From Nitrososphaerales archaeon (lineage in GTDB: Archaea > Thermoproteota > Nitrososphaeria > Nitrososphaerales > Gagatemarchaeaceae), in the NCBI GenBank assembly GCA_014874415.1, contig JACWAI010000079.1, positions 1 through 39,100 of the forward strand: a DNA stretch of 39,100 bases, read 5' to 3'. The notes below the pieces were generated by a model that was given only the letters and a program-made list of their open reading frames with translations, made no database searches and had not been told where the DNA came from. Below are positions 1,346 through 20,578 of this stretch, piece after piece (the stretch's first letter is position 1; the number at the start of each line of letters is the position of its first letter). The translations under genes were made by a program, and so were the position numbers.

Positions 1346-2083
1346 CTAGGACCGGACCACCGTGCCGTAGAAGTCCAGGCCCCGGACCGCCTTCGAGAAC
1401 TCGTTGCGCCTGTATCCCGAGACGAAGCAGACCTTCGTCCCGGCGGCCGCTATCTTGGCTGCGACGTCGAGCTTGAGCTTCATCCCCCCCGTGGCGTCGT
1501 CACCATCGGGGACTCCCATCCTCCTGATCTTCGACGGAGAGAGCTCGGGGATGATCACCCTGGTGTTCTGCTCGTACACCCCGTCCACGTCGAGGGCGAA
1601 GACTGCCCTATCGGGGGCGAGTGTCTTCGAGAGCTCCTGCACTATCACGTCCCCTGACATGACCTTGAAACCTGACTGGGTGAGGGTGACGTCCCCGAAC
1701 GTGACCGGGGTCAGCCCCTCCTTCAGCAGCCCCTTCAGCCAGCTGGCAACCTGCAGCCTCCCTGCCCTGCTCACCGCGTCGAAGGGAGAGAAAGGATAGG
1801 GGCTCAGCTTGTACTCCATCATCGTCTTGCAGACCATCCTGTCGAGCTCGTACATGGCGCCCCTCGTCTGGGCCACCCCCACGGCCGGCGCCTCTGAAAC
1901 TTCTGACGATATGCCGTGCTGTTTTGCGACCACGTGGCCGAACGAGCCTCCTCCGTGGACGACGACGACCTTGTGGTCGGAGGACGCTATCTCTTCAGAG
2001 AGGGCGGAGACCACGTCGGGGCGGTAGGAGAAGGGCTTCGACTTGTCCGTGATGACGGAGCCACCGAGCTTGGCGACTACCGT
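1346..2083 (-). CDS. Isopentenyl phosphate kinase, probable ACG start
   Basis: The enzyme phosphorylates isopentenyl phosphate to the diphosphate in the archaeal mevalonate pathway. It belongs to the amino-acid-kinase fold. AKLGGSVITDK at the N-terminus is the phosphate-binding strand-loop, VVHGGGSFGHVVAKQHG carries the conserved glycines and the catalytic His of this family, and the protein ends in YGTVV. The first ATG/GTG/TTG in frame is GTG at 2014, which would delete the essential GGS loop. In frame upstream lie ACG at 2083 (giving M-V-V-A-K-L-G-G) and CTG at 2092. ACG gives the family-like N-terminus and recurs at three other genes, so I place the start there (245 residues). It overlaps the end of the mevalonate kinase gene. 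The function is sure; the start codon is inferred. Confidence 0.88.
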   Translation of the reverse strand, partial: TVVAKLGGSVITDKSKPFSYRPDVVSALSEEIASSDHKVVVVHGGGSFGHVVAKQHGISSEVSEAPAVGVAQTRGAMYELDRMVCKTMMEYKLSPYPFSPFDAVSRAGRLQVASWLKGLLKEGLTPVTFGDVTLTQSGFKVMSGDVIVQELSKTLAPDRAVFALDVDGVYEQNTRVIIPELSPSKIRRMGVPDGDDATGGMKLKLDVAAKIAAAGTKVCFVSGYRRNEFSKAVRGLDFYGTVVRS

Positions 2084-3006
2084 TCTAGCCAGCTTTTCAC
2101 TCCCTCGGCGGGTATCTTCGCATTGAACGTCTCGAACCCTCGCGCCGACAGCCCCGAGACAATGCTTTTTTCCTTTCCTTCGGGCGCGACCGCGATGACG
2201 CTCCCCCCTCCCCCGGCCCCCGTCAACTTCGCCCCATAGCTACCGAGGGAGCCAAGCAGCTCCACAATGCTGTCGAGGGTCTCGTTGGAGACCCCGACGG
2301 ACCGGAGTATCGCGTGGTTCGCCGTCAGCACCCCTCCCAGCCCCTTCATGTCCCCGTCCCTGACCATCTCCGCGGCCGATAGGCTCAGTCCGCTCACCCC
2401 GTCCGCGAGCATGGAGAAGAGGCGCGGGTACCTCGCCCTCTCCCTCGAGACCCTGCCTATCTGCCCCCTCGTCTTCCGGGTGAGACCAGACTGGGAGACG
2501 ATGAGCGAACGGGGGGACCCGAGGGTGATCTTATTCGGCGGGGAGCCTGGCCTGAAGAGCAGGACGCCGCCGTAGGCGCAGACCGTGGGGTCGACCCCCG
2601 AGGGCTTGCCGTGCACCTGCAGCTCTCCCGCCATGGAATATCGGATGACCTCTTCTATTCCCAGCCCGAGGCCGCACAATCGCGAAAACGCTGAAGCGGT
2701 CGCCACCATGATCGAAGCGGAAGAGCCGAGGCCTGCGCCGCCTGGAACCTCGCTAGATATCCGCACCCTTACGGTCGGGTTCGCAGAGAAGTCCCTGGCC
2801 ATGGCGCCGACCACAGCGTAGACAGGAGCGGATCCTCGGGGGCCGGCATCGGCGAACCGGCTGGAGACGACCTGGAACTTCGCTGAGGGCTCGACCTCCA
2901 CGCGCACCCTGCGGGGGAGGGCGGCGGCGAGAGCCCAGGCACCATGGACGACGAAGTGCTCACCTGTGATTATTGCCTTCGAAGGCGCCTCCGAGACGGC
3001 TTTCAT
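2077..3006 (-). CDS. mvk: Mevalonate kinase
   Basis: This GHMP-family kinase phosphorylates mevalonate, an early step towards isopentenyl units for membrane lipids. It has an N-terminal APSKAIITGEHFVVHG stretch, the GHMP ATP-binding loop PGGAGLGSSAS at residues 88-98, and the C-terminal motif KLTGAGGGGSVIAV. The 309-residue length is usual for archaeal mevalonate kinases. It starts with ATG three bases after the MEMO gene stop and is followed by the overlapping isopentenyl phosphate kinase. The pairing with that kinase suggests the archaeal pathway, in which phosphorylation and decarboxylation precede the final kinase step. Confidence 0.93.
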   Translation of the reverse strand: MKAVSEAPSKAIITGEHFVVHGAWALAAALPRRVRVEVEPSAKFQVVSSRFADAGPRGSAPVYAVVGAMARDFSANPTVRVRISSEVPGGAGLGSSASIMVATASAFSRLCGLGLGIEEVIRYSMAGELQVHGKPSGVDPTVCAYGGVLLFRPGSPPNKITLGSPRSLIVSQSGLTRKTRGQIGRVSRERARYPRLFSMLADGVSGLSLSAAEMVRDGDMKGLGGVLTANHAILRSVGVSNETLDSIVELLGSLGSYGAKLTGAGGGGSVIAVAPEGKEKSIVSGLSARGFETFNAKIPAEGVKSWLER

Positions 3007-3009
3007 CTG

Positions 3010-3852
3010 TCAGACGAATCTGAGGGCGCCATAGCCTACGACTTGAAGGTTGTCTCCCGTCGTGTCCCCGCTTGACGCGTACTTCAGTAGCTCCGCCTTC
3101 TCGAGGCCGAGGATTTTCGCCGTCTCCATGACCGTTGCTATTGCACCGAAGCCGCAGGCAGTCACGTTGAGCCTCTCGAGGGTGGAGTAGAAGCCGTCCA
3201 GGTCCATCTTGAGGACCTGGTGGAGGAGCGCCATGTCCTTCCCCCTGGCGGCGTCGGCGGGCTCGTAATGGGTCAGGTCGGAGGACGCGACGAGGACTGA
3301 CCTCTTCCCGTCGATGACCCTGGCGAGGGCGGAGGAGAGCGACTTGGCGGTGTCCATGTCCTGGAAGGCGAGCGAGATGGGAAGGATCGGGACAGAGTCC
3401 CCGTAGATGCGCTGCAGGAACGGCAACTGGACTTCGAGGGAGTGCTCGAGCCTGTGGGCCTCGGGGTCAAAGGACACGATCTCCGACAGCTCGGCCAGCT
3501 TGCCTGTGGCTCCGGAGTCGACAAGCATCCTGCCGAGGGGGGTCTCCCAGGACCCTTCGCCGAAGGTGGAGACGCCGCTCCCGATGCCGTAGTGGTTCGG
3601 GGCGACGACGACTATGAGCTCGGGGTCGCGGAGGGAGGACACGTGCAGGTAAGAGTGGGCGGCGACGGGGCCGGAGTAGACGTAACCGGCGTGAGGAGAG
3701 ACGACGGCGACGACGGCGGCCTTGGTCCGTGCAGCGGGGGGCTGCCTGCCGGGCCCCAGCGGGTGCGAGTAGCAGCTGTCGACCAGGGAGGCGAGCTCGG
3801 CTGGGTCGGCAGGGTAGAACTGTCCGGCTACGGCAGGCTTCCTTACGAGCAA
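3010..3852 (-). CDS. MEMO1 family protein
   Basis: This is a 280-residue protein of the MEMO family, which is widespread in archaea and eukaryotes and related in fold to class III extradiol dioxygenases. Its biochemical role in archaea is not settled. Recognisable features are RKPAVAGQFYPAD at the N-terminus, VVSPHAGYVYSGPVAAHSY, VVAPNHYG, the HSLEVQLPFLQ stretch and SSDLTHYEP. These contain the conserved His positions of the family's active-site pocket. The start is TTG at 3852. In many archaea this gene sits between rps2 and mevalonate kinase exactly as here, so the neighbourhood supports the call without revealing function. Confidence 0.9.
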   Translation of the reverse strand: MLVRKPAVAGQFYPADPAELASLVDSCYSHPLGPGRQPPAARTKAAVVAVVSPHAGYVYSGPVAAHSYLHVSSLRDPELIVVVAPNHYGIGSGVSTFGEGSWETPLGRMLVDSGATGKLAELSEIVSFDPEAHRLEHSLEVQLPFLQRIYGDSVPILPISLAFQDMDTAKSLSSALARVIDGKRSVLVASSDLTHYEPADAARGKDMALLHQVLKMDLDGFYSTLERLNVTACGFGAIATVMETAKILGLEKAELLKYASSGDTTGDNLQVVGYGALRFV

Positions 3853-3861
3853 CGCCGGTGG

Positions 3862-4557
3862 CTATTCGTTCCTGTCCGATATACGCTCGTCGAACCCTTC
3901 AGGCTTCGGCTCTTCCTCCATCTTGGTCTCAAAGTCCTCGATGCTGTATTTCATGGGCTGGTCTTCGGCGAGAAGCCCGGCGTGGGTCAGCGTCGCCCGT
4001 GCGAGGAGCCAGAATATGGCCGCTATCGCCTTCCGGCCCCGGTTGTTCCCGGGTATGACCAGGTCTATGTCGTCTGTGACGTTGTCAGTGTCGCAGACGG
4101 CTATCACAGGGACCCCCAGCTTCCCCGCCTCGACGATGGCCTGCATGTCTGACATGGGGTCGGCGACTACGACCAGCTCGGCGTCGAGGTGACCGGGATA
4201 CAGCGGGTTGGTGAAAGTTCCGGGCATGAACCTGCCGATGCGCTTCATGGCGCCCGTGAGCTCGCAGAACTTCTCCACCGCCATGGCGCCGTGCTCTCGG
4301 CTCGTGTATACCACCGTGTTCGTGGCCCCCGTCGCGGCGATGAACTTTCCTGCGACGTCGATCCTGTGGAGGGTCTTGGCGTAGTCTATCATGTGGAGCC
4401 CGTCGGGGCGGGGCCTCGCGGTGAACTGTTCCATCGTCTTGGTACGGACGGGGGTGCCGATGCGGATGCCTGTCGCGAGGAGGGCCTTCTCCGAGAGGCC
4501 CTGGACCACCATGGTGTCAGCCGAGCCGGCTTCGTCGTCGAACTCGGACATCGTCAT
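3862..4557 (-). CDS. rps2: Small ribosomal subunit protein uS2
   Basis: Archaeal S2 binds the head-body junction of the 30S subunit. Diagnostic stretches are IRIGTPVRTKTMEQF, RPDGLHMIDYAKT and the later VADPMSDMQAIVEAGKLG followed by PVIAVCDTDN, all characteristic of S2. The acidic C-terminal tail (EEEPKPEGFDE) is common in archaeal forms. It starts with ATG at 4557, with ATG at 4551 as an alternative. It lies 12 bases after rpoN; the enolase gene often found between rpoN/rpoK and rps2 in archaea is absent here. Confidence 0.95.
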   Translation of the reverse strand: MTMSEFDDEAGSADTMVVQGLSEKALLATGIRIGTPVRTKTMEQFTARPRPDGLHMIDYAKTLHRIDVAGKFIAATGATNTVVYTSREHGAMAVEKFCELTGAMKRIGRFMPGTFTNPLYPGHLDAELVVVADPMSDMQAIVEAGKLGVPVIAVCDTDNVTDDIDLVIPGNNRGRKAIAAIFWLLARATLTHAGLLAEDQPMKYSIEDFETKMEEEPKPEGFDERISDRNE

Positions 4558-4569
4558 CCAGACCTGCCC

Positions 4570-4779
4570 TTACTGGAGCTCTGCCTTCCGGCTGAAGAAG
4601 GGGAGCACCTGGTCGATGACGTCGACGGACGAGATGAGCATCCTGCGGCAGCAATACCTCTTCAACCCCAGGGCGTCGAGGACCTTCCCCGGGTCCTCCC
4701 CTGCCTTTACCCTCGACTGGAAGGGGGCGAACTTGTCACCGATGAGGTTGCCGCATGTGAAGCAGCGGATTGGGATCAT
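4570..4779 (-). CDS. rpoN: RNA polymerase subunit Rpo10 (RpoN/RPB10)
   Basis: This is the small zinc-binding assembly subunit of archaeal RNA polymerase, homologous to eukaryotic RPB10. It is 69 residues long with the atypical zinc-binding signature [13 protein letters not shown] near the N-terminus and RYCCRRML in the middle, giving the CxxC...CC ligand pattern. ATG at 4779 is preferred; TTG at 4782 would add one residue. It follows rps9 closely. The rpoK gene that often sits next to it in archaea is not in this window. Confidence 0.95.
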
Positions 4780-4785
4780 CAATTT

Positions 4786-5211
4786 CTATCGATAGCTCTT
4801 TTGGCGCTTTCGCCTCGCGCCTGGACCTCCGAATTTCTTTGGCTCAGCTTGTCGCGGGTCGCCCGATAGCAGGTATTTATTGTATGCATTCAGCTTGTCC
4901 CTGATATCGCTCCCCCGCACCTGGTCCACGTAAGCCCTGGCGATCGCCATGGCCGCGGCATCGGCCTGCCCCATGAACCCCCCTCCCGCCACGCTCACGT
5001 CGAGGTCGTACTTTTCACGGAGCTCCCCGACGACGTGCACCGGACCCAGCAAGTGGAGCCTCGCCGGCTCTGGCTCCCATAGCTCGACGGGGGTCCCGTT
5101 GACCCTTATCCTCCCTGCACCGGGGACTATCGCCGCCGTCGCGCGGGCTGTCTTTCTCGCACCCGAATAGAGCTTCGGGGGCTTCTTGACCGACGCCTTT
5201 GGAGCGGGCAT
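4786..5211 (-). CDS. rps9: Small ribosomal subunit protein uS9
   Basis: S9 of the 30S head, whose C-terminal tail contacts P-site tRNA. The 141-residue protein has SGARKTARATAAIVPG-like basic sequence, DVSVAGGGFMGQADAAAMAIARA and the typical C-terminus KKFGGPGARRKRQKSYR, with the invariant terminal Lys-Ser-Tyr-Arg. ATG at 5211 is used here; ATG at 5226 would add five residues (MERVA) and overlap rpl13. It lies directly after rpl13, the usual archaeal order. Confidence 0.95.
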   Translation of the reverse strand: MPAPKASVKKPPKLYSGARKTARATAAIVPGAGRIRVNGTPVELWEPEPARLHLLGPVHVVGELREKYDLDVSVAGGGFMGQADAAAMAIARAYVDQVRGSDIRDKLNAYNKYLLSGDPRQAEPKKFGGPGARRKRQKSYR

Positions 5212-5213
5212 TG

Positions 5214-5654
5214 CTACTCGTTCCATCCCAGGCTCTTCGAGAGGTCCCCCATCGTCACGTACACGGGGACAGGACGGGGGGCCGAGGTATCGTCGAACTT
5301 CGTAAACTTCGTCGCCTCCACGGCGGAGGGGACGCCGATGTAGACCCTGAGCCTCTTCATCGCCGTCGCGCCCTTGGGCTTCTTGCGCGGGACCATCCCC
5401 CTCACCATCCTTCTGAGTATGTTGTCGGGCCTGCGCGGATGGATGGGGCCGTAGATCGGGTTGACCCTGCTGGACAGCTCGAGCCTCTCCTTCCACTGGT
5501 TTATCACGGACACGCGGGAGCCAGATATGAGCGCCTTCTCGGCGTTCACGACCACCACCCTCTTACCGGAGAGTATGAGCTTGGCGACCTTTGACGAAAG
5601 CCGCCCGGCGATCTGGTCGGTGGCATCGACGTAGACTGTGCCCTCACTTGACAA
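5214..5654 (-). CDS. rpl13: Large ribosomal subunit protein uL13
   Basis: L13 is an early-assembly 50S protein. Diagnostic segments are VYVDATDQIAGRLSSKVAK at the N-terminus, then HPRRPDNILRRMVRGMVPRK, which matches the archaeal/eukaryotic L13 core. The length is 146 residues. The start is TTG at 5654, overlapping the last codons of rpl18e, and the gene ends just before rps9. This order (rpl18e-rpl13-rps9) is standard in archaea. Confidence 0.95.
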   Translation of the reverse strand: MSSEGTVYVDATDQIAGRLSSKVAKLILSGKRVVVVNAEKALISGSRVSVINQWKERLELSSRVNPIYGPIHPRRPDNILRRMVRGMVPRKKPKGATAMKRLRVYIGVPSAVEATKFTKFDDTSAPRPVPVYVTMGDLSKSLGWNE

Positions 5655-5997
5655 GCTTGACCCCGCTCCCTTTCGGATACTTCTTCAGGAACTCCTCGAC
5701 GGTCAGGGCTGACCCCCCTGACGCCTGGATCTTGGACCTCGCCTCTGCTGAAAAGGCGAAGGCCCCTACTGTGACCTTCCTTTCCATCACACCCGTGCCA
5801 AGCACCTTGCCGGGGACGAAGACAGCCTGGCCGTCCTCGGCTATCCTGGAAATCCTCCCCAGGTTCACCTCGACCCGGGTCTTCCCCGGGTTTGAGAGGA
5901 GGACTGAAGCCTCGCTCCATATGGGCGCCTTCTGCTTCTTCCCCGCCTTCTCTAGCATGACCGACGCGTACCTGGCGAGGGGGTTCGACGCTGTCAT
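5644..5997 (-). CDS. rpl18e: Large ribosomal subunit protein eL18
   Basis: Archaeal/eukaryote-specific 50S protein L18e, distantly related to bacterial L15. The 117-residue product has NPLARYASVMLEKAGKKQKAPIW at its N-terminal side, the central VNLGRISRIAEDG strand and VFVPGKVLGTGVMERKVTV, which is the family core. The ATG at 5997 overlaps the rpoD stop in an ATGA arrangement, showing translational coupling. The reading frame continues open far upstream through rpoD, but that extension is only a shadow. Confidence 0.94.
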   Translation of the reverse strand: MTASNPLARYASVMLEKAGKKQKAPIWSEASVLLSNPGKTRVEVNLGRISRIAEDGQAVFVPGKVLGTGVMERKVTVGAFAFSAEARSKIQASGGSALTVEEFLKKYPKGSGVKLVK

Positions 5998-6629
5998 TCT
6001 CCCCCGCCCACCGCGACCTGAATCTCCTTGAGCTTCTTCTCGAGCAGCTCGATTGCCTTCAGGACGATCTGCTTGGCGGGGAGGCCACCGGTCGACTCCA
6101 CCGTCAGGTTGAACACGCCTTCCTTCTTCCCGTCGGTGAGCACGGCGATGCTGCATGGCTGCCACTTCGCGTGCTCCTTCCCCCGTCCCAGCCTCGCGTA
6201 GGCCTCCAGCTTGACGGACTGCCCCATGGCGAGCTTGACGAGCGGGATGGTCTCGCTCACGGGCCTCACCTCTCTGTCCTCCGAAACGAGGTCCCCCGAG
6301 GTCACGGTGGAGACCTTGTCCTTCCCCTTGGCGTCCAGGACGAAGAGCACCCTGCACTTGTGGCAACCGAGCGGGTTCCCGCAGTCGCACTCCTCGGGGA
6401 GGTTGTACTTGGCTAGGTCTGTCTTGATCGGTATCATGCCGAGCCTGTGGGCGAGTATCTCGTCGTAGAGTACGGAGGAGTTCTCGAGGATGACCACGTC
6501 GTCTATCGCCATGGACGGGACCTCGGCTATGCAGAACCTCCTGACGGCGTTGGCGTACGACCTGTCGATCCCTTCGAGCTGAAGGGTGATGGAGTTGCCG
6601 CCCTCTTCCAGGACCTTTACTTCAACCAT
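5994..6629 (-). CDS. rpoD: RNA polymerase subunit Rpo3 (RpoD/RPB3)
   Basis: Alpha-like assembly subunit of archaeal RNA polymerase that pairs with RpoL. It has the dimerisation-domain sequence SYANAVRRFCIAEVPSMAIDDV and LAHRLGMIPI, then CDCGNPLGCHKC at about residues 83-94. This four-Cys loop resembles the zinc loop of eukaryotic RPB3, and no separate ferredoxin-like cluster domain is seen in the 211 residues. The start is ATG at 6629. It heads the minus-strand operon and is divergent from rps13; in most archaea it follows rps11 on the same strand. Confidence 0.95.
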   Translation of the reverse strand: MVEVKVLEEGGNSITLQLEGIDRSYANAVRRFCIAEVPSMAIDDVVILENSSVLYDEILAHRLGMIPIKTDLAKYNLPEECDCGNPLGCHKCRVLFVLDAKGKDKVSTVTSGDLVSEDREVRPVSETIPLVKLAMGQSVKLEAYARLGRGKEHAKWQPCSIAVLTDGKKEGVFNLTVESTGGLPAKQIVLKAIELLEKKLKEIQVAVGGGE

Positions 6630-6816
6630 TGATTACACCGGCTAGATTGATACGAGCTCTCATGAGACGTCGCGTTTCGAGGTGCGGGATTGGTTCTGGT
6701 TAAAAGAGTTTTGGAGAGGAATAGACGAGTTTTGGGGGAGCGTTTCGAGTCGTCTGAATTTTCGCCGTGAGACGCTTCAAAACTTATAACCGAAGGGGGA
6801 AGGGCAGGGCAAGAAC
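6630..6816. promoter_or_regulatory. Divergent promoter region, rpoD / rps13
   Basis: This 187-base region separates two divergent translation operons. On the plus strand, TTATAA at 6784-6789 lies about 30 bases before the rps13 ATG, which implies a very short leader. On the minus strand, TTTTAA (6705 to 6700) is the best TATA-like element for rpoD and would give a leader of roughly 45 bases; this one is weaker. The ten-base sequence GCGTTTCGAG occurs twice in the same orientation, at 6672-6681 and 6740-6749. It could be a shared regulatory site, but nothing in the sequence proves that. Confidence 0.6.
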
Positions 6817-7311
6817 ATGTCGGAAGCCTCCGAGTTCAGGCACCTGGTCAGGATATCCGGAAGGGACCTGGCGGGCGGCAAGAAGCTGATTATCGCCCTC
6901 TCAGACCTGAAGGGGGTAGGCTACAACTTCGCGAACGTGATAACCACCAGGCTCAGCCTCGACCCGAGGGTCAGGCTCGGCACCCTGAGCGAGCAGCAGG
7001 TCAAGGAGATAGAGGAAGCAATTCAGAGCACTTCCAAGGCAGTTCTCCCGAAGTGGTACTACAACAGGAGGAACGACCCCGAGACCGGGGAGGCGAAGCA
7101 GCTCCTCGGGTCTGATCTTGATTTCATCCAGAAGAACGACATACAGGACGAGAAGAACATCCAGAGCTGGAAGGGGATAAGGCACGGGCTGGGGCTGAAG
7201 GTCAGGGGGCAGCGGACCAGGACGACTGGGAGGAAGGGGAGGACAGTCGGGGTGAGGAAGGCTACCCTCGTGGCAGCGGCGAAGGAAGCGGCGAAGAAGG
7301 AAGAGAAGTAA
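6817..7311 (+). CDS. rps13: Small ribosomal subunit protein uS13
   Basis: S13 of the 30S head, contacting the P-site tRNA and the 50S bridge. It has FRHLVRISGRDLAGGKKL and the helix-two-turn-helix sequence LSDLKGVGYNFANVI near the N-terminus. GIRHGLGLKVRGQRTRTTGR followed by GRTVGV closes the conserved part, and an Ala/Lys-rich tail follows. The length is 164 residues. It starts with ATG at 6817, about 30 bases after a TATA box, and leads the rps13-rps4-rps11 group. Confidence 0.96.
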   Translation: MSEASEFRHLVRISGRDLAGGKKLIIALSDLKGVGYNFANVITTRLSLDPRVRLGTLSEQQVKEIEEAIQSTSKAVLPKWYYNRRNDPETGEAKQLLGSDLDFIQKNDIQDEKNIQSWKGIRHGLGLKVRGQRTRTTGRKGRTVGVRKATLVAAAKEAAKKEEK

Positions 7312-7314
7312 GGG

Positions 7315-7869: not shown

Positions 7870-7874
7870 GATAG

Positions 7875-8279: not shown

Positions 8280-8282
8280 CCC

Positions 8283-9233: not shown

Positions 9234-9257
9234 GTGCCCCCGGGGGAGACAGACCCT

Positions 9258-9265
9258 ACATAAAC
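9258..9265 (-). promoter_or_regulatory. TATA box of the winged-helix regulator
   Basis: GTTTATGT read on the minus strand is centred about 28 bases before the ATG at 9233, predicting a leaderless or nearly leaderless transcript. It excludes the longer start at 9275. Confidence 0.6.
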
Positions 9266-9268
9266 GGC

Positions 9269-9317: not shown

Positions 9318-9354
9318 AGATTGCTTGCAGAGTACAGTACAATGTTGGTCGGGG

Positions 9355-9360: not shown

Positions 9361-9386
9361 GGGCCAGAGAAAGATTCCGGTAGTAA

Positions 9387-12227: not shown

Positions 12228-12259
12228 GCAGCGGAAGTCAGGACGGAAGGCGGCCAGCG

Positions 12260-13474
12260 TCAGAGCTCGACCGTCTTTGACCTTTCTTCTCCATGGGACA
12301 CCAGCCTGACACGCACCCGGAGCTCGTTCTCGAGGTATTCGACGAACCTCTTCTCTGCGGCGGGGAGTCCATGGTCGTAGCTCGCGCCGTAGAAGGAGAA
12401 AGGAGATTCGTAGACCGGCTCCACCTCGGAGAGATGCGCGAGGGACGCCTGGAAGTCGGAGGTCTCCGACCCGTCCCGCCTGTAGGCGACGCAGACCTTG
12501 AAGTCCTTCACCTGGGAAAGGACGTCGACCTTCGAGAGGGCCAGCTCCGAGGTCCCGTTGAGCTTGACGGTGTATCTCAGCGCCACGAGGTCTATCCACC
12601 CCACGCGGCGGGGACGTCCCGTGGTGGCGCCGTATTCGTTGCCCACTGACCTGATGGTTTCTGCGAGGGGCCCTGTTATCTCCGTGGGGAATGGGCCCCC
12701 GCCGACCCTGGTCGCGTAGCTCTTCGTGACGCCGAGGGACTTCCCGACCAAGGTGTGAGAGATGCCGAGGGCTGCGGGTATGTAGCCCGTCGTGGTGTGG
12801 GTGCTCGTCACGTAGGGGTAGGACCCGTGGAGCAGATCCAGGAGGGAGCCCTGCGACCCCTCGAAGAGGACGGACCCCCCGCTCTCGGATAGCTCGACGA
12901 TCCGCCTGCTGACGTCTCCGACCATGCCCCGCAGGAGCGCCTTCGAGTCCTCAGCCCAGGCGACAAGGCCGGCCGGGTCGACCCCGAGCTTCTGATAGAA
13001 CTTGGAGAGGGCGCTGAAGTCGAACCCCGCGATAAGGTCTGAGGCCCGGGGGGACAGCCGGAGGGCCCTGAGGGCGTAGGCAGGGCCTATGCCCCGCTTC
13101 GTGGTGCCGATGGCGGCAGGGCCCCTCATCTCTTCAAGGACCTTGTCCAGCTCCTTGTCCTGCGGGGAGACAAGGCTGCACCTGCCGTCGACAAGCATCT
13201 TCTTCCTCAGTTCGTCAGGGAGGAGGGAGAGCTCTTCTCTGAGGACCGCCGGGTCGACCACCACCCCGGCGCCTATCAGGAGCTCCTTTCCCTTGAAAGC
13301 CCCGGACGGGATGAGATGGAAGGTGTGCTTTCTGGTGCCTATCACGACGGTGTGCCCGGCGTTGCTCCCCCCGCTGTACCTGGCGACGGCGTCGTACCCT
13401 CCCGCCAGGTAGTCAACGATCTTTCCCTTGCCTTCGTCCCCCCACTGGAGACCCACGACAGAGAGGTTGGGCGT
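12260..13474 (-). CDS. purA: Adenylosuccinate synthetase, probable ACG start
   Basis: PurA joins IMP and aspartate with GTP hydrolysis on the way to AMP. The signature VVGLQWGDEGKGKIVDYLAG is at the N-terminus, followed by SNAGHTVV, KRGIGPAY and ESQGSLLD-like FEGSQGSLLDLLHG and YPYVTSTHTTTG. The first ATG/GTG/TTG in frame is GTG at 13456, which falls inside the conserved first beta strand. Extending to ACG at 13474 gives M-P-N-L-S-V-V-G-L-Q-W-G-D-E, the family N-terminus (404 residues). No standard or table-11 alternative start lies between that ACG and the guaB stop, two bases upstream. An AGAGGG element lies about nine bases before the ACG. It is translated after guaB, so both branches from IMP share one transcript. 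The function is sure; the start is inferred. Confidence 0.93.
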   Translation of the reverse strand, partial: TPNLSVVGLQWGDEGKGKIVDYLAGGYDAVARYSGGSNAGHTVVIGTRKHTFHLIPSGAFKGKELLIGAGVVVDPAVLREELSLLPDELRKKMLVDGRCSLVSPQDKELDKVLEEMRGPAAIGTTKRGIGPAYALRALRLSPRASDLIAGFDFSALSKFYQKLGVDPAGLVAWAEDSKALLRGMVGDVSRRIVELSESGGSVLFEGSQGSLLDLLHGSYPYVTSTHTTTGYIPAALGISHTLVGKSLGVTKSYATRVGGGPFPTEITGPLAETIRSVGNEYGATTGRPRRVGWIDLVALRYTVKLNGTSELALSKVDVLSQVKDFKVCVAYRRDGSETSDFQASLAHLSEVEPVYESPFSFYGASYDHGLPAAEKRFVEYLENELRVRVRLVSHGEERSKTVEL

Positions 13475-13475
13475 G

Positions 13476-14951
13476 CTAGATGACCCTCTGTATGTCGTGG
13501 GGGAGGCTCTCCTTGTGCCCCGCGGAGGTTATCCGCATGAACTCGGCCTTCGCCCTCAGCTCGGGAAAATCGTGAGCCCCGGAGTAGCTCATCCCCGACC
13601 TCAGGCCTCCGACGAGCTGCTTGACGACCTCGTCCACCCTCCCTTTGTAAGGGATGAGCCCTTCGACCCCTTCGGGGACGCTTTCTTCTATCACCTCTTC
13701 GATGAGCTCGTCCTCCTTCGGCCCGGTGCTCTGCGCCTCTCTGACCCTCCTGTCGACGGTCGCCGCCAGAGACGCCATCCCCCTGGTGAGCTTGTACCTC
13801 ACCCCGTCCCTCAGCACAGTGGGCCCTGGGCTCTCCTCCGTCCCTGCGAACAGGCTCCCTATCATGACCGAAGACGCGCCCGCGGCAAGAGCCTTCGTGA
13901 CGTCCCCGGGGTTCCTCACCCCCCCGTCCCCGATTATGGGGATGCTGCTCCCCTCCGCCCCGGCGACGCTGTCCATGATGGCCGTGAGCTGAGGGACCCC
14001 GGAGCCCGTGACCACCCTCGTCACGCAGATGCTCCCTGACCCGACCCCCACCTTGACCGCGTCGGCCCCGGCACCGATGAGGTCCGAGGCGCCCTTCGCC
14101 GTCGCCACGTTGCCTGCCACCACTTCGACGTCCCCCAGCTCCTTCTTGATCGCCTTCACGGCGTCGACGGCGTACGAGGAGTGGCCGTGGGCGATGTCGA
14201 CGACGAGGGCGTCGGCGCCGGCGCCGAGGAGCTTCTCGGACCTGACCAGGAAGTCAGACTTCACCCCGACCGCGGCCGCCACCCTCAGCCTCCCCTTGGA
14301 GTCCTTCGTGGCCATCGGGAACTGCCGCCTCTTCATGATGTCCTTCGACGTGATCAGGCCTGCGAGCCTTCCTCCCCCGTCGACGAGGGGGAGTTTCTCG
14401 ATCTTGTTCTCGTGCAGTATCTTGCGCGCCTGCTCGAGCCTGACCCCCTTCCTAGCGGTGATCAGCCTGCGGGCCGGCGTCATCACCTTCCTGACTTTCC
14501 TCCCTGGTTCGTCTTCGAGGGTGATGTCGCGCTTCGTGAGGAGGCCCAGGATCTTGCCCCCCTTCTCGACTATGACGATCCCCCCCACCCCCCGCTCCCT
14601 CATGATGTCCCAGGCTTCCTTTATGGTGTCGCCGGGGCCAAGCGTCACCGGGTCCTCTATTACGACCCCCTCGGACCGCTTTACCTTGAGGACCTCGCTC
14701 ACCTCTTCTTCGACTGTGAGGAAGCGGTGGATGACGCCGATGCCCCCGAGGCGGGCTATCGCTATGGCCATGGTGGACTCTGTGACCGTGTCCATGTTGG
14801 CGCTCACTATCGGGATGGCGAGGCTGATCTTTCGCGTGAACCTAGTATGCGTGTCGGCGTCCCTTCTGGACTTCACGTCTGAGAACTTTGGGACAAGGAG
14901 GACGTCGTCGAAAGTGAGGCCGACTCTCATTCCTGAGGCGGAATCCTTCAC
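13476..14951 (-). CDS. guaB: Inosine-5'-monophosphate dehydrogenase
   Basis: GuaB oxidises IMP to XMP with NAD, committing to GMP. The 491-residue protein has [13 protein letters not shown] at the N-terminus, two CBS domains at about residues 95-215 ([41 protein letters not shown]), and the catalytic loop [14 protein letters not shown] with its cysteine, then [14 protein letters not shown]. The GTG start at 14951 lies 26.5 bases from a TATTAA box, so the transcript is predicted to be leaderless; ATG at 14930 is an internal alternative. It precedes purA in a two-gene IMP-branch operon. Confidence 0.95.
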
Positions 14952-14974
14952 TTGACTTCGCCTTGTTCCCAGGG

Positions 14975-14980
14975 TTAATA
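14975..14980 (-). promoter_or_regulatory. TATA box of guaB
   Basis: TATTAA on the minus strand, centred 26.5 bases before the GTG start codon at 14951. It is a useful internal yardstick for leaderless genes in this genome. Confidence 0.6.
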
Positions 14981-14997
14981 GTCGTTGTGGAGAGAAG

Positions 14998-15138
14998 CGC
15001 CGGGACAGGGACTTTCCCCTTCTCCATGGAGAAGGATTTGAACCCTGATTTCCGTTTCCGGAAACAGGCTAGCCAGCTGGGAGGTTCCAGGCCTACGCAG
15101 TCGATCTTCTGCGCCCTACCAGATTAGGCGATCCCGGC
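14998..15138 (-). tRNA. tRNA-Ser (anticodon GGA) with three predicted introns
   Basis: The 141-base gene folds to an 86-base serine tRNA once three inserts are removed. The acceptor GCCGGGA at the 5' end pairs fully with TCCCGGC at 15005-14999, and the discriminator is G, as in archaeal tRNA-Ser. The D-arm is GCCT/GGGC with loop AATCTGGTA. The anticodon arm is TAGGC-CTGGAA-A-GCCTG, with GGA at 15088-15086. The long variable arm TTTCCG-GAAA-CGGAAA is a perfect six-pair hairpin. The T-arm is CAGGG-TTCAAAT-CCCTG. Predicted introns are 15112-15097 (16 nt, at position 25/26 or 26/27), 15084-15071 (14 nt, canonical 37/38) and 15035-15011 (25 nt, in the T-arm). Exact ends can shift by a base or two because of repeated G or C. 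CCA is not encoded. Confidence 0.88.
15018..15035. repeat. 18-base perfect palindrome inside the T-arm intron
   Basis: CCTTCTCCATGGAGAAGG is its own reverse complement and occupies most of the third predicted tRNA intron. In the precursor RNA it would form a self-contained stem directly next to the T-loop, consistent with presenting a bulge-helix-bulge site to the archaeal splicing endonuclease. Confidence 0.75.
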
Positions 15139-15162
15139 GTTCGCTGGGCCGAGAAAAGCTGC

Positions 15163-15168
15163 TTAAAA
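15163..15168 (-). promoter_or_regulatory. TATA box of the tRNA-Ser gene
   Basis: TTTTAA on the minus strand is centred about 27 bases before the mature 5' end at 15138, so transcription should begin at or next to the first tRNA base. Confidence 0.6.
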
Positions 15169-15233
15169 CCTCAACACAGACGATGCGCTTGTCCAAGGAA
15201 CCTCCGGCTGGAAGGGGATGAAGGGCGTTTTTC

Positions 15234-15617
15234 TTACGCCGTGCCTATGTAAGTACAGGCTGTGCTGTTCCATGTCCGGTAACCAGTCTGAGTGGTTGTG
15301 GGGATCATGGTATAGGTGGTTGCGTACCCAACGGTCTGACTTGCAGATGTTGTCGTCTGGTAAGTTTGGACCTGAGAACTCTGCGTCGAGGTACCAAAGG
15401 ACGTTGTGCTACTTCCGTAGAACTCATATGCCCTGACAGTATACTCCGTTACTACGCATCGCATGACCCAACCTTGCGGCATTGTGAGGGTCGTGGTGTA
15501 GGTTGACGTCACGGTCTCCGCCCCTGTATTCCCTGCAATCGCGCTCCCGAAGTAGCCAAGGCCAGCGCCGACAAACAGGGCCAGTATGATGAGGATCGTT
15601 GCAACTTGAGCTCTCGT
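15234..15617 (-). CDS. Thr/Ser-rich membrane-anchored surface protein, probable ACG start
   Basis: I do not recognise a family. With ACG at 15617 as start the product is 127 residues. It has a short basic N-terminus (M-R-A-Q), a hydrophobic segment at about residues 5-25 (VATILIILALFVGAGLG) that serves as signal anchor, and a long extracytoplasmic part rich in Thr, Ser, Tyr and Gln with two cysteines. Without that start the first usual codon is GTG at 15512, which would lose the whole membrane segment. A minus-strand TATATT at 15646-15641 is centred 26.5 bases before the ACG, the same spacing as leaderless guaB, so the mRNA probably begins with ACG. The tail resembles Thr/Ser-rich stalks of archaeal surface proteins, which are often O-glycosylated; that is inference. 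Confidence 0.7.
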   Translation of the reverse strand, partial: TRAQVATILIILALFVGAGLGYFGSAIAGNTGAETVTSTYTTTLTMPQGWVMRCVVTEYTVRAYEFYGSSTTSFGTSTQSSQVQTYQTTTSASQTVGYATTYTMIPTTTQTGYRTWNSTACTYIGTA

Positions 15618-15640
15618 TGAACAATGGAACCGTGGTGCGA

Positions 15641-15648
15641 AATATAGC
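15641..15648 (-). promoter_or_regulatory. TATA box of the surface-protein gene
   Basis: GCTATATT on the minus strand; its TATATT core (15646-15641) is centred 26.5 bases before ACG at 15617. No ATG, GTG or TTG in the surface-protein frame lies between the box and that codon. Confidence 0.65.
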
Positions 15649-15675
15649 TCTAATGATTGAAACGCCAGTGAACCG

Positions 15676-16683
15676 CTACTTGCCCTTCGACTGAGAGTCC
15701 AGTTTCTGCTTCGTGTGGGTCTTCCAGAGCCTCGGATATGTCCCCGCCAACATCACGACCCGCTCGGTGGTGGAGGCGAGCCCCCGATGGACCCCGTTCA
15801 TCTCTTCGGTTGCCATCAGCGCCTTCCCTATGGCGACAAGCTCCATCTTGGCGCTGAGGATGGCGACGTTGTCGTCCTTCTTCACCCCTTCGGAGACGGA
15901 GAGGACCCCGGGGACCCCCAAGCGGGCGCCATGACAGATTGCGTCCACAGCCGAGTCCCGGATAACCACCCTGCCTATGTCTCCCAGCGAGTCTTCCACG
16001 GGTAGGATGAGCTTCCTCAGCGGCGACTCGTCCCCTTCCTTCAGGCGGAACATGGCGTCGTTCAGCTGGTGGAGTGTGACGAATCCGTTCTCCTCGTTCA
16101 GGGGGCCGACTTTGGTCCGCCTTAGCTCAACCATGGTGGCCCCAACGCCGAGCACCTCCCCCATGTCATAGACGAGCTTGCGGATGTAGGTCCCCGACTG
16201 GCAAATCACCCTGAACATGTACAGGTTCCCTGACGACTCCGTGAGCTCTAGCTCGTGTATGGTGCGGCTCCTCGTCTGGCGGCTCACCGAAGAACGCTGC
16301 GGGGGCCTCTGGAATATCTCGCCTGTGAACTCTTTGACGACGCCGTCGATCTGCTTCCGGGGGACCGACGAATGGAGCCTCATCACCCCCCGGTACTCCT
16401 TCGGGAAGAGCAGGAGGAGGCTCAACGCCCTGGTCGACTGGCCGAGTCCTATGGGGAGGAGCCCCGACACGGGGGGGTCGAGGGTCCCGCTGTGCCCCGC
16501 CTTGTCAACCCCCAGGAGCTTCTTCGTCCAGGCGACTACTTCGTGGCTCGTCGGGCCGCGAGGCTTGTCCAGGGGTATCAGGCCATACTCGAGCATCTCC
16601 TTCACCGGGCGGGACGCCGGTGGCCACCCGTGGCTGGGGTCGGAGGGCTCCTCGTCCAGGACGACCATTTTCCGGGACTGCAA
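15676..16683 (-). CDS. cbf5: rRNA pseudouridine synthase Cbf5 (TruB family, H/ACA RNP)
   Basis: Catalytic subunit of archaeal H/ACA ribonucleoproteins, converting guided uridines in rRNA and position 55 of tRNA. The TruB core is present: GLIPLDKPRGPTSHEVVAW, then AGHSGTLDPPVSGLLPIGLG with the catalytic Asp, and ICQSGTYIRKLVYDMGEVLG. A C-terminal PUA domain (about residues 245-320) includes GARLGVPGVLSV and LMATEEM. The start is TTG at 16683, with ATG at 16668 as alternative. It closes the long spc-type operon, next to cmk; the rpl14e gene that lies between them in many archaea is absent. Confidence 0.94.
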   Translation of the reverse strand: MQSRKMVVLDEEPSDPSHGWPPASRPVKEMLEYGLIPLDKPRGPTSHEVVAWTKKLLGVDKAGHSGTLDPPVSGLLPIGLGQSTRALSLLLLFPKEYRGVMRLHSSVPRKQIDGVVKEFTGEIFQRPPQRSSVSRQTRSRTIHELELTESSGNLYMFRVICQSGTYIRKLVYDMGEVLGVGATMVELRRTKVGPLNEENGFVTLHQLNDAMFRLKEGDESPLRKLILPVEDSLGDIGRVVIRDSAVDAICHGARLGVPGVLSVSEGVKKDDNVAILSAKMELVAIGKALMATEEMNGVHRGLASTTERVVMLAGTYPRLWKTHTKQKLDSQSKGK

Positions 16684-16684
16684 T

Positions 16685-17251
16685 TCAGTCCCTTCGGCTC
16701 TTCACGTACTCGGTCACTATCTTGGCCACCTTCTCTTCGTCGATGGCGTCTGTTTCGACGACGAGGTCGAACGGTTTCAGGTCCTTCCCGAACTCGATGC
16801 CGTATATCTTCTTGTACAGCTTGTAGTTCTCAAGGTCTCTCACCGAGAGGACCTTCCTGCACCGAGATACTGGGACGCCGTCTCTCTTTGACATCCTCGC
16901 CGCCCTGCTTTTCACCCCGCCCGAAAGCCAGACCTTCAGGCCGTCCTCGGTGAGCCAGGGGACGGGGTAGCTCGTGATGACGACGTCCCCTTTCTTGGCC
17001 TTCTGCAGGAGCCTGGCGTCCACTTCTTTATCGAAGTCGGAGGACCTCTTCCTTTCCTGGAGGAACTTCATCCCCTCCCCCCTGTCCCACCAGTCCTCCC
17101 CACCGGGGGTGTACCCTTCCTCCACTGCCATCTCCTTCAGTACGTCCCCGCCTCCCACCATGGGGACGTGGAGGGCCCTGGCCACCTTCTTTGACACCGA
17201 AGTCTTGCCCACCGCCGGCATCCCCGAGATTATGATCGCCTTCAATTGCAA
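16685..17251 (-). CDS. cmk: Cytidylate kinase, archaeal type
   Basis: Transfers phosphate from ATP to CMP/dCMP. The P-loop SGMPAVGKTS is near the N-terminus, GGGDVLKEMA is the NMP-binding part, and ERKRSSDFDKEVDARL plus RDLENYKLYKKIYGIE are typical of the archaeal Cmk subfamily. The protein is 188 residues from TTG at 17251; TTG at 17245 (MKAIIISGM) is an equally good start. It lies between the DUF106 gene and cbf5, its usual archaeal location. Confusion with other small NMP kinases is possible, but a separate archaeal adenylate kinase sits nearby. Confidence 0.88.
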   Translation of the reverse strand: MQLKAIIISGMPAVGKTSVSKKVARALHVPMVGGGDVLKEMAVEEGYTPGGEDWWDRGEGMKFLQERKRSSDFDKEVDARLLQKAKKGDVVITSYPVPWLTEDGLKVWLSGGVKSRAARMSKRDGVPVSRCRKVLSVRDLENYKLYKKIYGIEFGKDLKPFDLVVETDAIDEEKVAKIVTEYVKSRRD

Positions 17252-17254
17252 ACT

Positions 17255-18154
17255 CTAGGTCGTCGTGTGTAGGAGCCTTGCGAGCATGGTGGAGAATGTG
17301 AACGAGCTCAGGAAATACCACCAGAACAGGCTCACCTCGAAGAGGCTCGGGTTGAGCGTCGGCGCAGCTATCACCGGGATCGGTATCGGGGTGAAGGCCA
17401 CTATCACGCCGTACCCACCGAGGAACGTCGCCATCAGATAGTAGACGACGAGCAGCGGGATGAAGGTGATGCCTGTCACCTTGAGCCTCGACGTCGACAC
17501 CTTTGCCTGTTCCTGGCGGACGGCCAGCTCCCGCTTCTTGAGCTTCTCGAGCTTGACCTTGTCCCCAGCCCGGGTCGCCTCACGCTTCTCCTTGTTGAAG
17601 GCGCTCACCTCGGCTCGCATCCTCCTCTCTTTGTTGAGGTCCACCACCGCTCTTGTGGCGACCTGGGTGATCAGGCCGAGTGCGAGGGAGGTCAGGGTCA
17701 CCACGAAAGTGGAGACGGGCGGGATGTATTGCGGGACGCTGAAGGACGCATCAAAGCTCGAGCTCGCCGCTATCACCACGACAGGGTAGGTCCCTGTCGT
17801 CTCGTTGCCAGGCACCCAGAAGTTGCACCCTTGCAAGTCGCCAGCGGCGGAGGTCAGGCATGTCCCGCTGAGTGCAACCTGCTTGCCGGCGAATGTCGCG
17901 CTGACGTTCTCGTTGGCGGGGAGCTTCTGCCCCGAAATCGTCACCATGGTGCCCGCTATGTCGGTGGACGGCGTGAGGGAAACAGTCCCCGCCGACGCGC
18001 CAGCGGTGTTCGTCGTCGTCGTTCCGCCCTTGGGCGTGAAGACGGGGAGGATGAGAAGGTAGAAGACGAGGAAAGCTATGACTATGATGACGATGTAGTT
18101 GAGAGTCTTGGAGCGTCCGCGGCCGGAGGGGGCCGACTTGTTCCGGGCCGCCAT
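17255..18154 (-). CDS. DUF106 / EMC3-TMCO1-like membrane insertase with extracytoplasmic Ig-like domain
   Basis: The C-terminal half matches archaeal DUF106 proteins, members of the Oxa1 superfamily related to YidC and eukaryotic EMC3/TMCO1: a membrane helix at about 150-172, a charged coiled coil at about 173-222 (DLNKERRMRAEVSAFNKEKR), then two further membrane helices. The N-terminal half is unusual: a basic start, one membrane segment at about 18-40 and a roughly 90-residue beta-rich domain (GTVSLTPSTDIAGTMVTISG, then FWVPGNETTGTYPVVV) like an IPT/TIG or Ig-like fold, presumably outside the cell. It lies in the secY-adk-DUF106-cmk order, consistent with a role in membrane protein insertion. 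The ATG at 18154 overlaps the adk stop. Confidence 0.85.
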   Translation of the reverse strand: MAARNKSAPSGRGRSKTLNYIVIIVIAFLVFYLLILPVFTPKGGTTTTNTAGASAGTVSLTPSTDIAGTMVTISGQKLPANENVSATFAGKQVALSGTCLTSAAGDLQGCNFWVPGNETTGTYPVVVIAASSSFDASFSVPQYIPPVSTFVVTLTSLALGLITQVATRAVVDLNKERRMRAEVSAFNKEKREATRAGDKVKLEKLKKRELAVRQEQAKVSTSRLKVTGITFIPLLVVYYLMATFLGGYGVIVAFTPIPIPVIAAPTLNPSLFEVSLFWWYFLSSFTFSTMLARLLHTTT

Positions 18155-18726
18155 CAGGACTTCGCCTTCCCCAGCATCTTCACAAGTGCCCTGGCGACCT
18201 GGCCCTGCTTCCCCTGCTCGTTCTTCACAATGTTCATGGGCGCGCCGGTGAGGGTCGAGGAGACAGCGAGGAAGCTCCTCGCCAATGCGAGCTCCTCGAT
18301 AAGGCTCTCAGGGGCGACCGAGTCCCTGTACCTCGACTTGTCCGCCGACCTCCTGGTCGCTATCTCTTCAGGAGACGCTTCTACCAGCACGAGGTGCGTG
18401 GGCTGCATCGCCCGGACGACTTCGAACGGAAGCCCCGGCCAGAATCCTTCGTCCGTCCGGATGAAGAGGTGGGTGTCGACTATGACGGCCTTCCCCTTCA
18501 TCTTCGCTATCTTGGACGCCGCTAGGCGCTGGAGGCGCTTCTGCTTCTCGACCGGCATCTTCCTGATTTCGTCCCTGTTCTTGACCCACTTCAGGGAACG
18601 GGCGGCCTCGAACATCAGCGTGCCGAAGTTCACCAGCTTCGCTCCAGGGAGCCCTGAGACCACCCCCTGGACCACCGTGGTCTTCCCGACCCCCGGGATC
18701 CCGACGACGACTACGCGCAGCGCCAC
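18154..18726 (-). CDS. adkA: Adenylate kinase, archaeal type
   Basis: Archaeal AdkA balances AMP, ADP and ATP. The P-loop is VVGIPGVGKTTVVQ, followed by KLVNFGTLMFEAAR, the archaeal-type sequence RDEIRKMPVEKQKRLQRLAA and DTHLFIRTDEGFWPGLP. The length of 190 residues is usual. It starts with GTG at 18726, three bases after secY, and its stop overlaps the DUF106 start. Coupling to secY is the standard archaeal arrangement. Confidence 0.94.
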   Translation of the reverse strand: MALRVVVVGIPGVGKTTVVQGVVSGLPGAKLVNFGTLMFEAARSLKWVKNRDEIRKMPVEKQKRLQRLAASKIAKMKGKAVIVDTHLFIRTDEGFWPGLPFEVVRAMQPTHLVLVEASPEEIATRRSADKSRYRDSVAPESLIEELALARSFLAVSSTLTGAPMNIVKNEQGKQGQVARALVKMLGKAKS

Positions 18727-18729
18727 CCT

Positions 18730-20163
18730 TTACCCAGCTCCTATCAGGCCTGCCAGGGCAGGAGACACCTCCTCCACCTGCTCCTTGAGCAGCATCTGAT
18801 AGTACTGGAGGATGATGTCTACCATCAGTAGGATCCCGATCCCCGTGCCGAAGACTCCGAAGAGGTCGGAGACCCCGGCGACCAGGCCTATCAGGATGCC
18901 TCCTATTATCGTGAGGGTCGGGATGTAGCGGTTGAGCATCTGCTCGATCGAGAGGCCCGTGCGCCTGAAGCCCGGGACCTGGACGTCGGCGTCCATGAGG
19001 TTCTTGGCCACTGCCTTCGGGTTCAGCCCCCCTATCTCTACCCAGAGCCTGGCGAAGAGCACCGCCATCCCGACCAGATAGAGGAGGTAGATGGCTGAAT
19101 GGACCGGGTCCCCTATGGTCTGGCTCACAGACTGGGGGGCCGTCATGAAGTAGACCAGGCCGCCGATGGGGAAGGAGGTGTTCGTGGTGGAGTTCGTAGC
19201 GACAGGAAAGACCGCGAGGTAATGGAACCACCAGGGAGGGCTGTTCCCGACGGAGTTGGCCAGGATCCTCGTGAAGAAGGTAACGTTGGCTCCGAGGGCT
19301 GACACGAGGATGACCGGGATGTTGGAGACGTACAGGAGCTTGATGGGGTAGACGCCCTGGAACCCCCTGTACTTTATCGAAGTGATGGGGAGCTCGACCC
19401 TGATGCCCTCTATGTAGATGAGCACCAGAATCATCACTATGGTGAGCGAGAAGGTGAGGAGGCTGGGGTACTTGAATTCCCTGACCACCATGCCGCCGAG
19501 GGTGTTCGAGAAGAAGGCGCTGATCGAGGCCGGGATGAAACCGAAGTACGCCGTCACCCCCTGGCTTATCTGGAATGTGATCGGGGTGAATGTGTACCAC
19601 AGGACGGTCTGGCAGACCCCCGCCAGGATGAACAGGCTCACACCGCTCCCTATCCCCCACCCCTTCTGGATCAGCTCGTCCAGGAGGAGGACGAGGACGC
19701 TCGCCACGAAAATCTGAACGAAGATAACGAGGGCCTGGGTCTGACCGAGGGACCCGAGCGCCCCGCCATAGATGTATGCAAGGGACTCGCCTACGATGAC
19801 GACGAAGGTCAGGAGCTTCGTCGCCGAGCCGAATATGGCCCTGTCAGAGGGGTCGCTCATGTCGAGCTTGATGATCTCGCTCCCTACCAGCAGCTGCAGG
19901 ATGAGTCCCGCAGTCACGATCGGGCCGATGCCCAGCTCCATCAGCGTACCCTGGGTCGAGGCGAAGACGACCCTCAGGAATGCGAGCTGGTCGTTCTGCC
20001 CCACCCCAGAGAAGCCGTAGAGGGGGGTGGTGGCCATGACGAGGTACGCTATGAGCGCTATTCCAGTCCAGACGAAGCGTTCGTTGAGCGAAGGCTTCTG
20101 CTCAGGCTTCGGGATTTCGGGGAGAACCGTGCCTACGCTCTTGATGAAGTCTCGTAAAGCCAA
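18730..20163 (-). CDS. secY: Protein translocase subunit SecY
   Basis: Channel subunit of the Sec translocon, with ten predicted membrane helices in 477 residues. The first segment is FVWTGIALIAYLVMATTPLYG, followed by the plug region and GIGPIVTAGLILQLLVG. The cytoplasmic loop before helix 7 has LPITSIKYRGFQGVYPIKLLY, and the late helices include GILIGLVAGVSDLFG and GTGIGILLMVDIILQY, all typical of archaeal SecY. The start is TTG at 20163, just after rpl15. A 430-residue open frame overlapping it on the same strand is only a codon-bias shadow. Confidence 0.96.
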   Translation of the reverse strand: MALRDFIKSVGTVLPEIPKPEQKPSLNERFVWTGIALIAYLVMATTPLYGFSGVGQNDQLAFLRVVFASTQGTLMELGIGPIVTAGLILQLLVGSEIIKLDMSDPSDRAIFGSATKLLTFVVIVGESLAYIYGGALGSLGQTQALVIFVQIFVASVLVLLLDELIQKGWGIGSGVSLFILAGVCQTVLWYTFTPITFQISQGVTAYFGFIPASISAFFSNTLGGMVVREFKYPSLLTFSLTIVMILVLIYIEGIRVELPITSIKYRGFQGVYPIKLLYVSNIPVILVSALGANVTFFTRILANSVGNSPPWWFHYLAVFPVATNSTTNTSFPIGGLVYFMTAPQSVSQTIGDPVHSAIYLLYLVGMAVLFARLWVEIGGLNPKAVAKNLMDADVQVPGFRRTGLSIEQMLNRYIPTLTIIGGILIGLVAGVSDLFGVFGTGIGILLMVDIILQYYQMLLKEQVEEVSPALAGLIGAG

Positions 20164-20173
20164 AGGCTGCGGC

Positions 20174-20578
20174 CTACTCCTCTACCAGAATTTTCCCGCC
20201 AGCGGCCTCTATTTTAGCCTGAGCCTTCTTTGTGAACGAGCCGACCCTGATTTCGTAGGCCCCCCCGACCTCCCCTGAGCCCAGGAGCTTGCCAATCCCC
20301 ATCGAAGCCAGGTCAAGGGACTTCGCCCCCTTTGCCAGCCCGTCGAGCTGCCCCACGTTCAGCCACCTCGCGGGGTGGCCGTAGTAGCTGGGCGGCCTGA
20401 ACGGGTCCCTGCCGAAGTGGTCGGGGTCGTTGATCACAAGCCAGCTCCATTTGTGCTTGTGGAGGCCGGCGTTTCCGTGCCCCCCCTGCTTCCCGGAGTG
20501 CCTGTGCTGCCCTATCTGGCCGTAGCCGTGCGTCCTCATACCCCTGTAGCGTCGTCCCTTGCGGGCCCTGGTGGGCGT
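20174..20578 (-). CDS. rpl15: Large ribosomal subunit protein uL15, probable ACG start
   Basis: L15 of the 50S subunit. RYRGMRTHGYGQIGQHRHSG and GHGNAGLHKHKWSWLV are the archaeal L15 core. No ATG/GTG/TTG is available at the expected N-terminus. The frame after the rpl30 stop reads AGC, then ACG at 20578, giving M-P-T-R-A-R-K-G-R-R-Y-R-G, which matches archaeal L15 N-termini in length and basicity. A strong AGGAGG lies about 11 bases upstream. The internal ATG at 20539 would remove 13 conserved basic residues, and CTG at 20584 is a further non-standard option. The family is certain and ACG is the preferred start (134 residues). It lies between rpl30 and secY, as is usual. Confidence 0.9.
   Translation of the reverse strand, partial: TPTRARKGRRYRGMRTHGYGQIGQHRHSGKQGGHGNAGLHKHKWSWLVINDPDHFGRDPFRPPSYYGHPARWLNVGQLDGLAKGAKSLDLASMGIGKLLGSGEVGGAYEIRVGSFTKKAQAKIEAAGGKILVEE

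Follow-up and report, generated by a model that had tools for sequence, protein, structure and literature searches.

NCG codons as putative rare starts at coupled genes in a Nitrososphaerales clade

Genes that overlap or lie close together can be translated by termination-reinitiation, as is known from Haloferax volcanii and Escherichia coli (available text of PMC10666635 and PMC6728339). In H. volcanii, a native pair spaced by +1 nt reinitiates, with an efficiency that drops with distance and fades by 13-23 nt (available text of PMC10666635). Weak start codons also occur in real genes, and the rare natural non-canonical starts include CUG, AUU and the GTC of Streptomyces sigR (available text of PMC5472188). 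A comparison of close prokaryote genomes traced 61,358 ancestral AUG starts and found changes to GUG in 363, UUG in 113, CUG in 2 and AUU in 1 (main text of PMC5622118). Here we examine whether NCG codons may serve as starts in a 39,100-nucleotide stretch of DNA from a Nitrososphaerales archaeon (contig JACWAI010000079.1, positions 1 to 39,100; hereafter the window), and in related genomes, with the purA gene as the best-seen case.

The genes considered here resemble the H. volcanii and E. coli pairs in that the downstream start lies within a few nucleotides of an upstream stop. They differ in the codon, since according to PMC10666635 all start codons have G in the third position, with ATT as a rare exception, and ACG appears 0 times in its main text. 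Like CUG, AUU and the sigR GTC, an NCG codon would be a weak start in a real gene; those codons mismatch the first and/or third base, whereas NCG mismatches the middle base. The start-switch study PMC5622118 made the same kind of comparison as ours, and its main text mentions ACG 0 times, whereas here 11 of the 20 distinct sequences compared within one clade have NCG at the purA start column.

The window is contig C65 of a 1.69-Mb metagenome-assembled genome (MAG) of 114 contigs, 91.6% complete, which we call the own genome (G000). Other genomes carry G numbers and sequence loci L numbers. "Same genus" is a label from the genome search, and "clade" is wider and also takes in named loci without stated kinship. 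By uS5, the nearest named relatives are MAGs of uncultured Thaumarchaeota/Nitrososphaerota, the best being SubAcS15-57 (98%). SubAcS15-57 appears in the acid-soil genome table of PMC10640624, and its place there suggests that the own MAG falls in Group I.1c (Gagatemarchaeaceae). NTG denotes ATG, GTG, TTG and CTG, NCG includes ACG, GCG and TCG, and NYG is NTG plus NCG. Codon offsets (+ or -) are counted from the aligned start column.

The start column of purA

Read from ACG, purA (adenylosuccinate synthetase) occupies 12260..13474 on the minus strand and matches PF00709 (E 1e-124), with protein residue 6 at profile position 2. Its proposed start codon, ACG at 13472..13474 on the minus strand, is 1 nt past the stop of the guaB-like IMP dehydrogenase gene (13476..14951, minus strand; PF00478, E 3e-139 on 13476-14939), a single nucleotide separating the TAG at 13478-13476 from the ACG. 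There is no in-frame NTG upstream back to the in-frame stop, a distance of 19 codons, and the next NTG downstream is GTG 13456 at +6.

We compared this column in 24 rows, which reduce to 20 distinct sequences of the clade. Seven have NTG (four ATG and one each of GTG, TTG and CTG) and 11 have NCG (eight ACG, two GCG and one TCG). The two others each offer a different candidate start: G022 has GTC and a TTG at +3, and G024 has GAG followed at +1 by a TCG that is 1 nt past TGA. In the outgroup, L022 and L027 carry TTG at the purA start. NYG occupied 18/20 cells at the column as compared to 25/160 in the eight columns next to it (Fisher p 3e-11, uncorrected for kinship). The column is 1 nt past a stop in all rows except G024 and G032 (2 nt). 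The purA tree comprises 11 sequences and has open forks.

The principal rival explanation is that the true start lies elsewhere, either at a GTG or CTG downstream or at a CTG upstream in the same frame, and that the NCG column is coincidental. In its favor, all eight ACG purA sequences and the TCG one have GTG or CTG 3-8 codons downstream (+3 to +8). A non-NTG start thus appears forced only in the two GCG genes and in G024, where no downstream NTG was found within the stretch read. For the own purA, GTG 13456 could serve as a start provided the protein can do without its first strand. The GCG genes (L008 and L011), on the other hand, contain no NTG between the upstream stop in their frame and a point past the P-loop. 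Their first downstream NTG is at +42 and +29, respectively, past the QWGDEGKGK loop at +9 to +17, which rules out an NTG start for both. Ten of the 11 NCG rows lack an upstream NTG in frame, eight of them as far as the in-frame stop and two (G029 and G036) as far as their fragment ends; the exception is L017, with an NTG 8 codons upstream. The residues just before VVG are also kept (N in 19/20, L in 18/20 and S in 17/20), and four sequences have ATG at the same column. A start at +6 in the own purA would cut these N, L and S residues, which correspond to the N-terminal strand in alignments with solved PurA chains. Taking these observations together with those on the genes described below, we consider a start elsewhere unlikely as a general explanation, and the comparison supports ACG as the probable start of purA.

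Other genes in the window and in related genomes

The sequence-only reading of the window had proposed ACG starts for four genes, at 2083, 13474, 15617 and 20578. ACG is present on the minus strand at all four positions, and as a start it is well supported for purA and contradicted for isopentenyl phosphate kinase (IPK). For rpl15 and a small surface-like open reading frame (ORF), the comparison speaks neither way.

IPK is the gene for which a start elsewhere holds. It occupies 1346..2092 on the minus strand (NF040647, above cut-off) and begins with CTG at 2092-2090, 3 codons upstream of the ACG, a codon that the sequence-only reading had itself named as an alternative. Among 20 same-genus start regions, near-identical genomes kept in, 19 could be aligned (G029 could not). 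At 2092, 17 of these 19 relatives have CTG and the other two TTG, whereas column 2083 has GCG in eight, ACG in three, GTA in two and ACC, CCC, GCA, ACA, GAG and GTC in one each. Because CTG or TTG is constant at 2092 and column 2083 is variable, IPK starts at CTG, and the ACG at 2081..2083 (minus strand) is its fourth codon and no start. Comparison with relatives separates the two genes, NCG and NTG alternating at one column in purA and unrelated codons standing at the ACG column in IPK.

The rpl15 gene (uL15, by PDB uL15 chains; 20174..20584, minus strand) could start at ACG 20578 or at CTG 20584, and both are possible from the alignment. The in-frame CTG, 2 codons upstream and named as an alternative by the sequence-only reading, gives some further room to a start elsewhere. 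It overlaps the TGA at 20583-20581 as CTGA, resembling the common -4 nt overlap, and this TGA ends the upstream gene (20581..21045, minus strand; no Pfam match), which we take to be rpl30. In clade relatives, the rpl15 ACG column has ATG, TTG, GTG or CTG, nearly always 1 nt past a stop. L015 has ACG there, with no NTG upstream before the in-frame stop and with CTG at +4. The small surface-like ORF (15234..15617, minus strand) matched no family in profile searches and had no orthologue among the sequences compared; its ACG 15617 is a possible start, and the nearest upstream NTG is 17 codons above it. At 15030-15140 of the window we noticed a stretch that resembles a tRNA interrupted by an intron and is not reported by ARAGORN.

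Further cases came from outside the window. An MvaD-like gene of the own genome (NF040704, E 3e-55, below its cut-off; PF22700, above cut-off) has ACG at its start column, 2 nt past TAG. In 19 same-genus relatives, NTG was found at the same column in eight and within a few codons in ten; the remaining one, G024, carries ACG immediately behind a TAG in the same frame (0 nt). G055, which belongs to another family and did not align, and G032, cut by a contig end, were left out. Neither the own gene, read 40 codons upstream, nor G024 has an NTG before +10, which also speaks against a start elsewhere. A gene without assigned function (own L089:3069-3677) has ACG in the own genome, G040 and G026a, TTG in G026b and G030, and ATG in G018; G027 had no match to the alignment motif. 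These alignments support ACG initiation as probable for the MvaD-like and L089 genes. At L180, G7 has GCG where the own genome has ATG (46% identity), both 1 nt past a stop.

Most of the putative NCG starts are 0-2 nt past a stop. The spacing to the upstream stop is +1 nt in the own purA, +2 nt (ACG) or a -4 nt overlap (CTG) in rpl15, +2 nt in the own MvaD-like gene and 0 nt in that of G024. Outside purA and rpl15, the stop would likewise belong to an upstream gene.

Some other genes are less clear. Outside the genus, an in-frame TAG is followed at once by ACG in uL18 (PF17144; L030:2437, L031:9411 and L041:295), with the next NTG at +13, +15 and +5, respectively; these genes might instead start downstream or be reached by read-through. 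For an aldo/keto reductase gene with ACG (own L144), three of four homologue stretches (47-49% identity) have ATG or GTG at the matching place and the fourth had no motif match, leaving the case undecided. For L167, an ACG gene of G7 that would be leaderless, the sequences compared contained no orthologue. Two loci are candidates only: own L108:2536-3225 has TCG 1 nt past TAG, its G5 orthologue having GTG one codon later, and own L095 has ACG after TAG. The individual calls of the start model described below include false ones (L183 and L176:11 failed on inspection), and an ACG match at L182 from a loose pairwise comparison appears to be an antisense frame. L143:5068-5709, presumably RNase HII-like, appears frameshifted in the own genome relative to its G5 orthologue.

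Frequency of NCG at gene starts

When 264 genes of three genomes were compared strictly with their orthologues, 12 were without any NTG near the aligned start. On inspection, three of them have sound N-termini (purA and L089 with ACG, L180 with GCG), L108 is a possible fourth, and the other eight look like wrong partner starts or a frameshift. By this gene-by-gene reading, non-NTG starts make up 1-2% of genes (3-4/264). An earlier and broader list of forced genes had 18/425. Four cases in 55 genes, which to the sequence-only reading had suggested a genome-wide ACG habit, is too high a rate; the habit appears rarer, about 1-3% of genes, and broader, as it concerns NCG. Routine ACG initiation, the first alternative of that reading, agrees with purA, the MvaD-like gene and the L089 gene and fails for IPK, and a restriction to ACG does not hold, as GCG and TCG are also found at start columns.

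We also re-estimated starts by an expectation-maximisation model with no assumption on the start codon, the upstream signals being learnt on NTG starts. In four runs on 609 own genes, it assigned 195-212 starts to ATG, 158-162 to TTG, 60-62 to GTG and 20-24 (3.3-3.9%) to ACG. ACG ranked fourth in all four runs and was the steadiest non-NTG codon. In controls, ACG received 0, 10.9 and 2.4 of 266 in Halomarina and 0, 0 and 1.5 of 236 in pSymB. At gene junctions, NCG was found at +1 nt in 15/99 as compared to 33/411 at +4 to +13 nt in the same frame (p 0.035). In the start model on the own genome, G5 and G7, TTG was nearly as frequent a start as ATG (about 160 vs. 200 in the own genome, about equal in G7). 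Three other statistics were set aside: the start model without upstream signals was noisy, a joint pair model, which ranked GAG, GAA and GGG near the top, was discarded as unfit, and pairwise start-column statistics with loose filters gave mostly misaligned N-termini.

Like the downstream GTG and CTG codons of purA, several of these results weigh against NCG as a start. The NCG tally in the 12 forced genes is flat, with 3 at the start column against 3, 2 and 3 in the three columns that follow, and the case thus rests on gene-by-gene reading. One Halomarina run (10.9/266, 4.1%) equals the own ACG share, so the start model is suggestive through the steadiness of ACG only. Other non-NTG codons reached up to about 11 in the controls, and AAG reached 18.6/381 in the relative G5. 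ACG was low in G5 and G7, and GCG, TCG and CTG were within control noise. The joint pair model gave no clear NCG excess. In junction pairs without NTG, NCG was found in 5/22 vs. 13/93 (p 0.33, not significant), and at +1 nt in 15/99 vs. 1/32 in controls (p 0.12, not significant). In the L089 gene, the nearest stop is 14 nt inside the start and not before it. A genome-wide habit is thus not shown, and the genome-wide statistics are suggestive only.

Weighing both sides, we put a probability of about 65% on the reading that ACG, GCG and TCG are rare natural starts beside ATG, GTG, TTG and CTG in this Group I.1c-like clade, and that they reflect loose recognition at coupled genes.

Putative initiation at NCG: machinery, alternatives and meaning

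The initiator tRNA has the anticodon CAU in the own genome (L209) and in eight other clade genomes, two of the stretches being identical. A changed anticodon is thus not the cause; the sequence-only reading had advised inspecting this anticodon. The initiator tRNA-Met gene at L209 (G000:C59, about 33.7 kb) seems cut by several introns, and related genomes have different intron-like inserts in this gene. In the anticodon comparison G000 gave no match with one mismatch, and two matches with three mismatches end in CTCGT. A search of 18 genomes recovered the initiation factor aIF1 in 15, the exceptions being the own MAG (91.6% complete), G003 and G006. Beside an archaeal aIF1, it looked ordinary in the eight plus-strand loci read.

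In plant organelles, AUG is made from ACG by C-to-U editing, and there, as here, ACG stands at the DNA level. Editing of this kind, the second alternative of the sequence-only reading, would turn NCG into NUG and leave initiation itself ordinary. The well-aligned starts without NTG do have a middle C and a final G (ACG, GCG, TCG), exactly what C-to-U change could repair. T-to-C mutation in a GC-rich genome (57-64%) yields identical codons without editing, however, and no obvious common motif was seen by eye in the flanks of the sites. The organelle starts are edited in the RNA, whereas the clade also has GCG and TCG. To our knowledge no such mRNA editing is known in archaea, although we made no search for it. 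We consider editing improbable.

Still less probable is a fusion of the second gene with the first by frameshift or read-through. The next frame does start right at the stop, often in the context TGA C, which favors +1 shifting in bacterial prfB, and an in-frame TAG precedes the ACG in the MvaD-like gene of G024 and in the three uL18 genes. Relatives with equal spacing carry ATG, GTG, TTG or CTG, however, and the frame relation varies by gene (0, 1 or 2 nt past the stop). Assembly or sequencing errors reading T as C at starts are very unlikely, although the genomes are MAGs and some have low coverage, since NCG stands at one column in 11 distinct purA sequences from separate genomes.

If NCG codons are natural starts, their main use would be in the downstream gene of closely linked pairs, usually 1 nt past the stop. 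The likeliest mechanism would be reinitiation, with the ordinary initiator tRNA (CAU), by a ribosome coming straight from termination. The stop codon would set the place of initiation, and a middle-base A-C mismatch would then be tolerated. The 0-2 nt spacing fits termination-reinitiation, and we infer that place may substitute for part of codon recognition. On this reading, translation would begin at NCG, with methionine, by reinitiation. A further step, which we propose tentatively and regard as somewhat doubtful, is that the start of coupled genes is set by position over codon identity. Any NYG might then initiate with tRNA-iMet(CAU), and purA might have drifted freely among ATG, GTG, TTG, CTG, ACG, GCG and TCG.

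A literature search by titles and abstract openings found no report of NCG starts in archaea, and one for non-AUG starts in Thaumarchaeota gave no match at that level. As far as these sources go, NCG starts, if true, would be a middle-base deviation that adds to the start signals described so far. Tolerance at the middle base, a part of the start codon generally regarded as strict, would then occur in a natural setting. If NCG starts are true clade-wide, gene callers that accept only NTG would cut or lose N-termini there. With the stop-plus-one geometry one could test directly if a ribosome, once it has terminated, picks its next start by place or by codon.

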